A DNA stretch of 64,000 bases from Phormidium tenue FACHB-1050. Its GTDB lineage: Bacteria > Cyanobacteriota > Cyanobacteriia > Pseudanabaenales > Pseudanabaenaceae. How positions within the stretch are numbered: position 1 is the stretch's first letter; each line of letters starts with the position of its first letter. Of this stretch, positions 39,851 to 42,998 are shown one piece after another. The stretch lies in contig NZ_JACJQY010000005.1 of NCBI RefSeq assembly GCF_014696925.1, positions 62,001-126,000 of the forward strand, written 5' to 3'. The notes beneath the pieces were generated by a model. The model worked only from the letters and a program-made list of their open reading frames with translations, searched no databases and was not told where the DNA came from. The position numbers and the translations under genes are program-made.

Positions 39851-39907
39851 CTAGACCCAAAAGAAAAGTGGCGGCGCGAAGCGCCGCCACTTTTCTTTTG
39901 GGTCTAG
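39851..39907. terminator. Bidirectional hairpin between hydrolase and antiporter genes
   Basis: CTAGACCCAAAAGAAAAGTG and its complement around GGCGGCGCGAAGCGCCGCC form a near-perfect 57-bp palindrome. It extends into the antiporter stop codon region (39904) and lies 25 bp past the hydrolase stop, so both convergent genes may use it. A second partial GGCAGCGCGAAGTGCCGCC palindrome precedes it. Confidence 0.75.
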
Positions 39908-41517
39908 CTATAAATAGATTGCTCAGAACTTGATTCTACTAGAATCACAGGGATAAAACTCGTTTCTAAAACTGCTTGAGAAACAGAACCCACTAGCACC
40001 TGTTCCCAAGGTTGATGTCCTCGTTTGCCGATTACAATATCCGTTACTTTGCGAGATTCAGCCACCCGAAGAATCTCTTCGGGAACTGTACCTGACAGGC
40101 TTAAAAACTCATAGCGAATATCTGATAAGAGCTTTTGAGATTTTCCTTGCAAAAGCGCGATCGCCTGTTGATCGCCAAGATTATCTACATACAAAACAAT
40201 CACCTCGCCATCACTACGCCTTGCTAAGTCTGCGGCTTTAACTAAAACATCTGTTGCTAGGACAGAGTCATCTATGGCAGCAAGGAAAACTGGACAACCC
40301 GAAATCGCTACTTTTGTGGGATCGACTTCGCCGCGTTCTAGAAGTTTGGGAGCAAAGGTAGGAATCGCCCATGCACCCAAAGGCGCAGTGACTAAAATCG
40401 AAAGCGCGGCGATCGCTAAAATTGTCTCACCACCAGTAATCCCCTGCGCCAAAGGAATTGCCCCAATAGCCGCCTGTACTGTCGCCTTAGCGGAGTTGGC
40501 TGGCAATAGAAATAACTGCTCCTTCCATGTCCAATTACTACCCACAGTAGACAGATACCAACCTAGCGATCGCCCAATCAAAGTTCCAATTCCTAATATC
40601 AATAGCCCTACTAGCAGATTGTTTCCTAAAACATTCAGTTGAATACTTGCTCCTAGTAACACAAACAAAATAATTTCGGCGATCGTCCATAAACTATCAA
40701 AGCCGCCTCGTAGTCTGCGAGCTAGAGGTGCATCTAGTTCTATTAAGAAAAATCCCATCGCCATCACCGCCATATAGCCAGAGAAAACAGGAAGATGGTC
40801 GGCTAGCACTACCAGCCAGAGAGCGATACTTGCGGAAACTAAAGAATCCTGAACGGCATTTTGAGTCCAATTCTGCTTGATTAACAGTGATACTAGCATT
40901 CGAGCCGAGACCCATCCCATTATTACACCTAATGTAATTTGGATGATGATTTGAAATGGAAGTAATTGCCAAGTTATACCTGTTGCTGGGCTTTGGGATA
41001 GAAATGGGAGCAGTAGGCTAAACACCATCAGAAGCAATACATTTGACAAAGCACTACCTGTAAGAATGGCATCAGTAATCCCTTTGGTTACTCCCCATCC
41101 TAAGCTTTTCAGTCGTAGCATCGCGGGTACGATGACAGCAGGAGATTCTGCGCCAATAATGCAGCCTAGTAATAGTCCCGTTAAAAAATCAAACTGAAGT
41201 AACCACATCGACGCAATGGCGATCGCGATCGCTTCACAAGCCGCAGGTAAAAATCCTAATCTTAAGGCGACAGTTCCCTGTTGTGTGAGTTTTTCGCGAT
41301 CAAGCCCCAACCCTGCTTTCATCAAAATCACCATCACAGCGATCGTGCGGAAGGACTTAGCCGCACCTAGCACTTCGGAACTAATTACATTGCCTACCTG
41401 CGCTCCTAAAAGAACGCCCACCAGTATCATGCCAACAAGAGCAGGGATTTGCAGCCGTCGAGCGATCTGCCCGACAAAGAAACCCATCACCAAAATCCAA
41501 ATAATACTTTCTAACAT
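39904..41517 (-). CDS. Cation:proton antiporter with C-terminal universal stress domain
   Basis: A 537-residue CPA2-like Na+(K+)/H+ exchanger with about 12 membrane segments over residues 1-390 (first WILVMGFFVGQIA). After the membrane part comes a universal-stress-protein domain (about 405-538, starting PVFLAAIDDS) with the nucleotide-binding pattern GKRGHQPWEQVLVGS (G-2X-G-9X-GS). The ATG at 41517 follows an in-frame GTG at 41520. Its leader contains a fluoride riboswitch, and some fluoride riboswitches are known upstream of Na+/H+ antiporters. A fluoride-linked role is therefore inferred, but the ion is not shown by sequence. Confidence 0.85.
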   Translation of the reverse strand: MLESIIWILVMGFFVGQIARRLQIPALVGMILVGVLLGAQVGNVISSEVLGAAKSFRTIAVMVILMKAGLGLDREKLTQQGTVALRLGFLPAACEAIAIAIASMWLLQFDFLTGLLLGCIIGAESPAVIVPAMLRLKSLGWGVTKGITDAILTGSALSNVLLLMVFSLLLPFLSQSPATGITWQLLPFQIIIQITLGVIMGWVSARMLVSLLIKQNWTQNAVQDSLVSASIALWLVVLADHLPVFSGYMAVMAMGFFLIELDAPLARRLRGGFDSLWTIAEIILFVLLGASIQLNVLGNNLLVGLLILGIGTLIGRSLGWYLSTVGSNWTWKEQLFLLPANSAKATVQAAIGAIPLAQGITGGETILAIAALSILVTAPLGAWAIPTFAPKLLERGEVDPTKVAISGCPVFLAAIDDSVLATDVLVKAADLARRSDGEVIVLYVDNLGDQQAIALLQGKSQKLLSDIRYEFLSLSGTVPEEILRVAESRKVTDIVIGKRGHQPWEQVLVGSVSQAVLETSFIPVILVESSSEQSIYS

Positions 41518-41520
41518 CAC

Positions 41521-41551
41521 GTCACGTTGATCTTGAAATGTTGAGCGTGAC
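41521..41551 (-). promoter_or_regulatory. Leader stem next to the antiporter start
   Basis: GTCACG and CGTGAC (6 bp, 19-nt loop) end directly at the GTG/ATG start. It could block ribosome access and be part of the riboswitch output. Confidence 0.45.
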
Positions 41552-41587
41552 TTGTAGAGGAAAAATTGATCTAGGCATCCGCGCAGT

Positions 41588-41621
41588 CCTACTCTTCCGC
41601 CACAAGTCGGAATAAGTAGGA
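41588..41621 (-). promoter_or_regulatory. Alternative stem overlapping the riboswitch
   Basis: On the minus strand TCCTACTTATTCCGAC can pair with GGCGGAAGAGTAGGA over about 12 bp. The TCC at its start is also the 3' half of the aptamer helix P1 (AGCTCC), so this hairpin and the bound aptamer compete. It is the likely expression platform. No T-run follows directly, so its output is unclear. Confidence 0.6.
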
Positions 41622-41690
41622 GCTATCAGCCTTTTAAACGTTACAAAAACAATCGATAACGCAAGGCGGTTTCGGCAAGCTCCATTGCCA
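41614..41690 (-). ncRNA. Fluoride riboswitch (crcB motif) aptamer
   Basis: On the minus strand, three helices fit the crcB/fluoride aptamer. GGCA and TGCC pair as the pseudoknot (GGCAATGGAGCTTGCC), GGAGCT pairs with AGCTCC (P1), and GCCTT pairs with AAGGC (P3) after the typical GAAACC linker; CTGATAGCTCCTAC follows. The same order occurs in the crystallised T. petrophila aptamer (from memory). The P3 arm is lengthened by a CGTTA/TAACG stem. It lies 97 bp upstream of the antiporter-USP gene and in the correct orientation. Confidence 0.92.
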
Positions 41691-41718
41691 TCCTTACTTT
41701 TATACCATTGAGGGAGAC

Positions 41719-41761
41719 AAAAAATGTAGAGGCAATTTATGAATTGTCTCTACATTTTTTA
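41719..41761. repeat. GTAGAGGCAATT-type palindrome
   Basis: AAAAAATGTAGAGGCAATT and its near complement around TATG. Palindromes of this sort are common in cyanobacterial intergenic DNA. It lies upstream of the fluoride riboswitch and may overlap its promoter. Confidence 0.6.
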
Positions 41762-41817
41762 AAAGGAACCTAAATAAACGCCAAGAGTCCTGCTTTTTTC
41801 TAAATTTGCAAATAGTC

Positions 41818-41926
41818 TTTACACCAAGCCACAAAATAGCTACGCCATTTTGTGGCTTTAAAACCCTTACTGGGTTTGGTTTTTAATTCACAAAAGTGTA
41901 GCAACACTTTCGTGAATTGGTATTAT
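41818..41926 (-). mobile_element. Type 1 element, copy C
   Basis: Reverse orientation, from TTACACCAAG to AATTGGTATTA. The stem is GCCACAAAATAGC/GCCATTTTGTGGC. Its end is fused through TA to the start of the type 2 element that follows, the same arrangement as at 53076. Confidence 0.75.
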
Positions 41927-42039
41927 AGCCGTCGCCATTCTTGTTAAGACATAAAACCCAAATAGTGTGAGGCGGCGCGAAGCGCCGCCTCACACTATTT
42001 GGGTTTTGATTTGTCCTAATACACTTGACTACAGCTATA
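41924..42039. mobile_element. Type 2 short element
   Basis: It runs from TATAGCCGTCGCCATTCTTG to TACAGCTATA. The hairpin 41953-42007 has arms AAAACCCAAATAGTGTGAGG and complement with the CGGCGCGAAGCGCCG tip, the same arms as at 45835-45889. The 600-bp gap between the antiporter and bestrophin genes is thus wholly taken up by the riboswitch leader and three repeat elements. Confidence 0.7.
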
Positions 42040-42119
42040 CTTGCTCAGACAAAGGCAGGGATCTTAACCTATAATTTCAGAGCTTTCTTGCATGTAGCAA
42101 TCCTAATTCGCGATCTCTA

Positions 42120-42998
42120 ATGAAAAAAAAGGATAGTTGGTTTCATATTGCACTACGTTGGAAAGGCTCAGTAGTTCCAGAAGTCTTGCCGCGATCGCTA
42201 TTATGTGGATTGTTTGGGGTTGTAATTTATATTCTTCATCTCTTAAATATCAAAGTTTCTCTACCAATTTTAGGTAGCATTATTCCTAATATCGTACTAG
42301 GTTTATTGCTCGTATTCCGTACCAATACAGCCTATGAACGCTTTTGGGAAGGACGCAAAGCATGGGGAACTCTCGTTAATACAGTACGAAACCTATCGCG
42401 ACAAATTTTAGTAGCTATTTCAGAGCAACAACCAAGAGATCGCCAAGCTAAAGTTGCGGCAGTTAAGCTATTAACAGCCTTTGCGATCGCCTTAAAACTA
42501 CATTTGCGATCGGAACCAGTGAACGCTGAACTCGAAGCCAACCTCTCTTCTGAACAATTTCATCGCCTTAAAACGATGAATCATCCACCTCTTGAAATTG
42601 CCTTTTGGATTAGTAGCTATCTTCAAGAACAAGCTCAACAAGACAAGCTTGATCGCTATCAGCTTAGTGACATGGTTCAACTTTTAAACTACATGATTGA
42701 TGTTGCAGGCATTTGTGAACGTATTCTTAGAACCCCAATTCCTCTTGCTTATTCTATCCATTTAAAGCAATTATTAATGATTTACTCTTTGTCACTTCCC
42801 TTCCAAATGGTCGATCAACTAGAATGGATGACTGGACCAATCGTCGCTCTGATTAGTTTTACTCTCTTAGGAATTGAAGAAATTGGTATTCAAATTGAAG
42901 ATCCCTTTGGTCATGATGCCAACGATTTACCACTAGATAATATCTGTAATAGCATGATGCGAAATATTGAAGATTTACTGTTGGTTAGTAGTGAGTGA
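42120..42998 (+). CDS. Bestrophin-family ion channel
   Basis: A 292-residue bestrophin-like (UPF0187) membrane protein. Characteristic parts are RWKGSVVPEVLPRSLLCG at the N-terminus, NTAYERFWEGRKAWGTLVN in the second helix region, PLAYSIHLKQLLMIYSLSLPF and the C-terminal GIEEIGIQIEDPFGHDANDLPLD. Bacterial homologues form pentameric anion or cation channels. Cyanobacterial members are related to thylakoid bestrophins, but location is not shown here. Length is normal. Confidence 0.9.
   Translation: MKKKDSWFHIALRWKGSVVPEVLPRSLLCGLFGVVIYILHLLNIKVSLPILGSIIPNIVLGLLLVFRTNTAYERFWEGRKAWGTLVNTVRNLSRQILVAISEQQPRDRQAKVAAVKLLTAFAIALKLHLRSEPVNAELEANLSSEQFHRLKTMNHPPLEIAFWISSYLQEQAQQDKLDRYQLSDMVQLLNYMIDVAGICERILRTPIPLAYSIHLKQLLMIYSLSLPFQMVDQLEWMTGPIVALISFTLLGIEEIGIQIEDPFGHDANDLPLDNICNSMMRNIEDLLLVSSE

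Follow-up and report, generated by a model that had tools for sequence, protein, structure and literature searches.

The window, by which we mean the whole 64-kb stretch of DNA analysed here, carries on its minus strand a fluoride riboswitch and, directly downstream of it, a gene for a transporter fused to a universal-stress-protein (USP) domain. The gene (39904..41517, with its ATG at 41517-41515) is an intact open reading frame of 537 aa. The riboswitch aptamer (41610..41698, minus strand) was matched by the Rfam model RF01734 over the full model (1-64), with a score of 47.1 bits, where the gathering threshold is 34, and an E value of 6.3e-10 for the whole 64-kb window, and this was the single match in the whole genome (5.6-Mb assembly, 99.98% completeness). 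The covariance check thus upheld the first-pass annotation, which had read a crcB aptamer on this strand. What the locus has in common with the known RF01734 switches is the full-length match, the shared strand and the position directly before a transporter gene. The two stems named in the annotation, GGCA/TGCC and GGAGCT/AGCTCC, were both present, but the labels pseudoknot and P1 had been exchanged. GGCA/TGCC (41686-41689 with 41674-41677, hairpin 41674..41689) is the helix marked <<<< >>>> in the Rfam consensus structure line, which we take to be P1 after the published aptamer structure. Its loop carries GGAGCT (41678-41683), the 5' strand of the loop-to-3'-end pseudoknot, whose 3' strand AGCTCC lies at 41619..41624. 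The extended P3, GCCTT/AAGGC, was found in the sequence as claimed, with a loop of 27 nt compared to 3 nt in the Rfam model. Immediately 5' of the aptamer a possible -10 element, TATAAA (41699..41704, minus strand), was picked out by eye; TATAA is common to five aligned sequences of the genus, and a promoter scan of 41400-42150 reported no minus-strand promoter.

A divergent gene of the bestrophin family (42120..42998, plus strand, profile match to PF25539) marks this locus in a relative, G412, where the riboswitch stands before a gene for the fluoride/proton antiporter CLC-F (see below). The interval from the riboswitch to the bestrophin gene contains a perfect 20-bp inverted repeat (41957-42003) that is followed on both strands by T-rich sequence and resembles a bidirectional terminator or a mobile repeat.

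Expression platform of the riboswitch

The DNA between aptamer and gene holds a cascade of three hairpins, H1, H2 and H3, all on the minus strand. H1 (41588..41620, CCUAC..UUCCG/CGGAA..GUAGG) is an anti-aptamer hairpin. From the pseudoknot strand it captures the final two bases, together with the conserved UAC behind them, and it sequesters the 5' strand of H2 in its loop. The platforms were compared in two sets, 35 of the window type and 18 of a Nostoc type; L006 and L012 (spacing 145) and other platform types were excluded from both. In the 35 window-type platforms, which were chosen by eye like the 18 others (among 25 + 48 platforms) so that all paired-cell percentages are favourable, H1 was paired in 93.8% of cells compared to 43-60% when slid by 1-3 columns, with little covariation. 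A stem overlapping an aptamer helix had been claimed at 41588-41621, and it is real. H2 joins GACUUGU (41602..41608) with ACAAGUC (41549..41555), whose GUC is shared with H3. It was paired in 98.4% of cells with 17 double-change cells, and it was recovered by RNAalifold unprompted. Its covariation score was matched by 0 of 500 shuffles, although two of five measures, double-change pairs and further pair types, were not above shuffles (454/500 and 462/500), and kinship among sequences can beat shuffles in this tool even without structure. H3 (41521..41551; GUCACG/CGUGAC, 41546-41551 with 41521-41526) lies just 5' of the start codon. It was paired in 78.6% of cells and covaried weakly (24/500 shuffles), and in constrained folding of the window with H1 enforced it was about 3% formed. 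The stem that had been said to block the start codon is therefore present but weak, and we rejected H3 as a firm masking stem. In the 18 Nostoc-type platforms the place of H3 is taken by a strand that can pair with the Shine-Dalgarno region. It was paired in 96.0% of cells, with 6 double-change cells; 2 of 500 shuffles reached this double-change count and 8 of 500 the covariation score.

No terminator-like site was found on the minus strand between the aptamer and the start codon, and transcription termination was rejected as the platform of the window. In this the platform differs from the published motif, which is described as often overlapping terminators (PMC2864571). Given the conservation of H1 and H2, the Shine-Dalgarno pairing of the Nostoc type and the absence of a terminator-like site, translational control is the most likely reading of the switch. 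When fluoride is absent, H1 would form as soon as it is transcribed, invade the aptamer on its 3' side and lock the 5' strand of H2. Masking near the start codon would follow, by H3 in the window type and by the anti-Shine-Dalgarno strand in the Nostoc type. When fluoride is present, the aptamer would retain its 3' strand, H1 would be blocked, H2 would form and the start codon would be released. In folding without ligand, in which the pseudoknot helix was imposed as a normal stem, the ON-like fold was favoured over the H1 state by 5 kcal/mol; H1 would thus have to win through being made first.

The transporter-USP protein

The protein consists of a Na_H_Exchanger domain (PF00999, residues 14-381, 40375..41478, minus strand; E 5e-29, 101.7 bits against 26.2) and a USP domain (PF00582, residues 412-527, 39937..40284, minus strand; E 1.4e-16) with a nucleotide-binding pattern, GxxG(9x)GS. 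The earlier description, a CPA2-like antiporter joined to a universal-stress domain, was right in the fusion of both domains on one strand, but its label 'cation/proton antiporter' is doubtful in view of the residues found at the ion site. The protein gave no match at E<=0.001 to the families of the two known exporters, which are unrelated to it: the small CrcB/Fluc channel (PF02537) and CLC-F (PF00654). Among solved structures, the best match by sequence was NHA2/SLC9B2, a CPA2 member (E 1.7e-30; profile 2.5e-47), and the positions of Glu95 and Arg316 are conserved with it. The family differs from NHA2 in having Ser-Asp/Asn for Asp-Asp, an invariant Glu for Val in the crossing segment, and the USP tail. 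In both HMMER alignments SFDDIL of NHA2 stands opposite ALS(N/D)VL of the transporter family, with Ser158-Asn159 (41041..41046, minus strand) facing the Asp-Asp cation site. All of 59 full-length orthologues had Ser at residue 158; at residue 159, 57 had Asp and the other two Asn. Glu124 (41146..41148, minus strand), which lies in AESP of the unwound crossing segment where NHA2 has Val, was invariant (59/59), as were Glu95, Arg316 and Lys344. In a second set (80 loci and the window) all 80 readable rows had Glu124 and Ser158, and four, the window included, had Asn159. Positions with polar or charged residues kept in at least 57 of the 59 rows were in their majority in the membrane domain.

In terms of the CPA motif, 94% of the superfamily have Asp at position 7, a residue repeatedly found essential, while position 6 is variable (PMC6181914). 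The window has Asn159 at position 7, where 57 of the 59 orthologues have Asp, and with Ser158 at position 6 it lacks the NHA2-type Asp-Asp pair; position 8, which is Arg or Lys in the motif, is Arg316 in all 59. In KefC, the corresponding change from Asp to Asn is reported to abolish ion density (PMC11150392), and in NHA2 substitution of both Asp kills activity (PMC8850199). KefC and other Q-D CPA2 members likewise have a residue other than Asp at position 6 (PMC11150392). However, KefC keeps the second Asp and has an RCK added domain, whereas the transporter of the window lacks the second Asp and its added domain is a USP.

The AlphaFold model of the protein had its best fold matches in MjNhaP1 and NHA2. 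Its mean pLDDT was 76.4 but fell to 43-66 at residues 121-180, round the ion site; thus the placement of Glu124 and Ser158-Asn159 was not taken from the model. A quick tree of 134 rows required four changes to Asn159, of which three are forced by starred branches (riboswitch-less rows uncounted). All five Asn159 carriers on the tree were riboswitch-linked, the labels being by Rfam for 13 loci and by sequence pattern for the remaining ones of L125-L204. L124 (internal deletion) was dropped from the 59-orthologue set and from the tree, and L179 and L183 (broken or partial) and L182, L188 and L189 (repeat genomes) were dropped from the tree. Within the genus, Asn159 was common only to the window and G401, a 97% relative, while G397 (94%) has Asp159. 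Among the matches listed, the closest named relative was the protein of Pseudanabaena sp. SR411 (97% identity). Purifying selection acts on the gene: the two genes of the genus that have Asn159 gave a dN/dS of 0.26, at a small dS, and the other four pairs compared gave 0.08-0.11.

Distribution of the transporter, the riboswitch and known exporters

The cyanobacterial genomes were searched for the aptamer-antiporter-USP arrangement, as the first-pass annotation had proposed. Among 386 genomes of the phylum, RF01734 was found at E<=0.001 in 50 and above the cut-off in 43; 50 of the 55 places were retrieved, the other five being sub-threshold. An orthologue of the transporter, full-length in each case, followed 25 of the 44 above-cut-off riboswitches in 25 genomes, with a gap of 80-145 nt. 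This makes it the commonest gene behind such riboswitches in the survey. Thus, the USP-fused form under fluoride control, which had been held unusual, is ordinary for cyanobacteria and not an oddity of the window. Broken pieces of the orthologue were seen at four further places of the 50 (L007, L010, L016 and L047). At L047, where the riboswitch is just below the cut-off and the genome gave no CrcB or CLC-F match, residues 1-117 and 365-529 remain in one frame. Other genes recognized behind the riboswitches were those for CLC-F, CrcB and, in further lineages of the phylum, a different CPA without USP (L017, L036 and L037). This different CPA was rejected as a relative, as it scarcely matches the profile of the transporter-USP family; inspection by eye showed in it a Thr-Asp pair (ITDLG) at the place of the antiporter Asp-Asp. 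In total, the orthologue occurred in 60 of the 386 genomes in one copy each, with 57-100% identity (E<=1e-60). Thirty-four of the 60 were without riboswitch, and a search at E 0.5 found no degenerate RF01734 before them.

The family reaches beyond cyanobacteria. One genome each from 84,980 species gave 259 relatives, and among the best 80 of these, which were retained, four were from methanotrophs: Methylotuvimicrobium buryatense 5G, two Methylobacter and one Methylomicrobium, three of them metagenome bins. The riboswitch was present at three of the four loci (L153, L142 and L163). On the quick tree the four genes formed one clade (SH-aLRT 100) within a cyanobacterial group (82-92), and from this nesting the riboswitch and the gene were probably acquired by the methanotrophs together as a unit. 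Furthermore, the gene was found on seven plasmids of the plasmid collection, from Picosynechococcus, [Synechococcus] sp. NIES-970 and Leptolyngbya. For example, on pAQ7 of Picosynechococcus sp. PCC 7002 (L226) a riboswitch of 47.5 bits (Rfam) lies about 100 nt before WP_012305550.1, which is annotated as 'cation:proton antiporter'. On five of the seven plasmids an alpha/beta hydrolase gene extends into the match.

No CrcB was detected in the genome of the window (PF02537), nor a close CLC-F (query riboswitch-linked CLC-F, E<=1e-50); the two CLCs that it does encode show 24-29% identity to riboswitch-linked CLC-F, a branch with identities of at least 64% among its members. Lacking an exporter is nothing unusual, since in 88 of the 386 genomes the antiporter, CrcB and CLC-F were all missing. 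In the 26 genomes of the genus, the antiporter occurred in 7, CrcB in 14, both in none and neither in 5 (Fisher p 0.0012), genomes being counted singly rather than as independent swaps on a species tree. The riboswitch was present in five of the seven antiporter genomes and absent from G395 and G404. G393, G400 and G282 of the genus gave no match to the antiporter, CrcB or the fluoride riboswitch. Of the 38 genomes of the wider family, two (G388 and G389) had both genes, the CrcB match of G389 being weak with an internal stop, and the antiporter of G419 was split.

Two sister genomes of the genus with neither antiporter nor CrcB, G403 and G412, have the fluoride riboswitch directly before CLC-F (435 and 433 aa, respectively). 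The DNA from aptamer to start in both aligns throughout with that of the window, with the three stems recognizable by eye, and divergence begins past the ATG. G412 also has the bestrophin gene as its divergent neighbour (87% identity over 112 aa), so the swap there is at the same locus as in the window. A genome-wide search for CLC-F covered four of the 26 genus genomes (G000, G193, G282 and G346), and no CLC-F was found beside the antiporter in the retrieved loci of the other six antiporter genomes of the genus.

Across the phylum, CrcB occurred in 18 of the 60 genomes with the antiporter compared to 232 of the 326 without (p 2.6e-9, kinship uncorrected). Once the CrcB carriers of two CrcB-rich, antiporter-free families were excluded, CrcB remained in 80 of at most 174 genomes without the antiporter, and the contrast with the 18 of 60 weakened to p 0.034; the CrcB of the remainder is understated in this count because carriers only were removed. 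Phylum-wide exclusion of CrcB was therefore discarded as strong evidence. While CrcB was never found alongside the antiporter in the genus, at least three antiporters elsewhere lie <=170 nt before CrcB and a fourth lies 621 nt before it. CLC-F was found in 8 of the 60 antiporter genomes, in six of them on the strand of the antiporter and <=410 nt downstream of it. Moreover, remnants of the antiporter lie between riboswitch and CLC-F at three of ten CLC-F loci (L007, L010 and L016), and no antiporter pieces were found at the remaining seven. It seems that a two-gene operon has repeatedly lost one or the other member. Among the 25 genomes with riboswitch and intact antiporter (G289, internally deleted, excluded), 13 had neither CrcB nor CLC-F, 6 had CrcB and 6 had CLC-F.

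Possible function of the transporter

Two families of bacterial fluoride exporters are established. The paper on the crcB motif names K+ and Cl- transport genes among those associated with it (PMC2864571), and a 2024 review lists Na+/H+ antiporters as the next most common fluoride-riboswitch genes after the exporters and explains them by pH homeostasis (PMC11139923). In the listed titles and abstract openings of the open-licence literature, we found neither the transporter-USP family as a fluoride transporter nor its changed motif.

Our preferred reading, to which we give a probability of roughly one half (about 0.48), is that a fluoride-ON, probably translational switch drives an NHA2-fold transporter-USP protein that replaces the known exporters and may itself export fluoride. 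A riboswitch, the absence of a known pump from the matches in the genome and mutual replacement in relatives together suggest that the transporter may be a new kind of fluoride pump. It would stand in for CrcB and CLC-F, and Glu124, rather than the lost Asp pair, could be the residue that couples the proton. Held a little less firmly, as a tentative proposal, is the wider claim that the family constitutes a third class of fluoride exporters on the NHA/CPA fold, in which the Asp pair was lost, an invariant Glu gained in the crossing segment could couple proton and fluoride, and CrcB and CLC-F are replaced in many cyanobacteria and in the methanotrophs that acquired the riboswitch-gene unit.

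The main rival, nearly as credible as this wider claim though on balance doubtful, is the role already published for such genes: an Na+/H+ or K+/H+ antiporter that would bring pH and proton-motive force back to normal as HF enters, while fluoride leaves by another way. NHA2 is the closest solved relative by sequence and the model folds like MjNhaP1 and NHA2, and Arg316, Glu95 and Lys344 are invariant. Asp159 in 57 of the 59 orthologues makes a proton or cation role possible in most members, yet position 6 is Ser in all of them and position 7 changed to Asn four times on the quick tree, in five carriers that are riboswitch-linked, a change with which KefC loses ion density (PMC11150392). The six operons with CLC-F and the positions before CrcB suit a helper as well as an exporter. 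However, a helper would be expected to go with an exporter, and the antiporter is alone in 13 of the 25 riboswitch genomes and swaps with CLC-F behind one riboswitch. That a mere helper should not persist alone is the main reason why we place the exporter function slightly above pH homeostasis.

The Asn159 of the window may also be read as an early inactivating change, with the riboswitch driving a dying gene. Its restriction within the genus to the window and G401, with Asp159 retained in G397, the dN/dS of 0.26 in this pair against 0.08-0.11 in four others, and the antiporter decay seen in other genomes agree with such a loss. We consider it improbable, given that the 537-aa frame, the riboswitch and the platform are intact, dN/dS is well below 1 and Asn159 recurs in full-length, riboswitch-linked copies of other lineages. 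Still less likely, and in our opinion very improbable, is that the fluoride-related part is the USP domain, acting as a nucleotide sensor or stress regulator on a membrane part that is a gated cation channel or an anchor. Such a role would fit the GxxG(9x)GS pattern, the two stretches kept in one frame at L047 and a uspA reported within a fluoride-riboswitch operon of Enterobacter cloacae FRM (PMC5533749), but most of the conserved polar and charged positions sit in the membrane domain, and the CLC-F proteins that replace the transporter in G403 and G412 (435 and 433 aa) were judged by their length too short to hold an extra USP. Against the switched exporter itself stand the 34 of 60 orthologues without riboswitch, the sharing of only two pseudoknot bases by H1, the weakness of H3 and the dN/dS of 0.26 of the Asn159 genes.

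Picosynechococcus sp. PCC 7002 is a tractable strain. With the gene, SYNPCC7002_RS15580, on its plasmid pAQ7, the changed cation site and the swap with CLC-F behind one riboswitch, a direct test of fluoride export is possible. The family therefore lets the question be put directly whether some of the riboswitch-linked Na+/H+ antiporters move fluoride. If they do, an anion-exporting branch would be added to the CPA antiporters, and the fluoride tolerance of cyanobacteria without known exporters would be explained.
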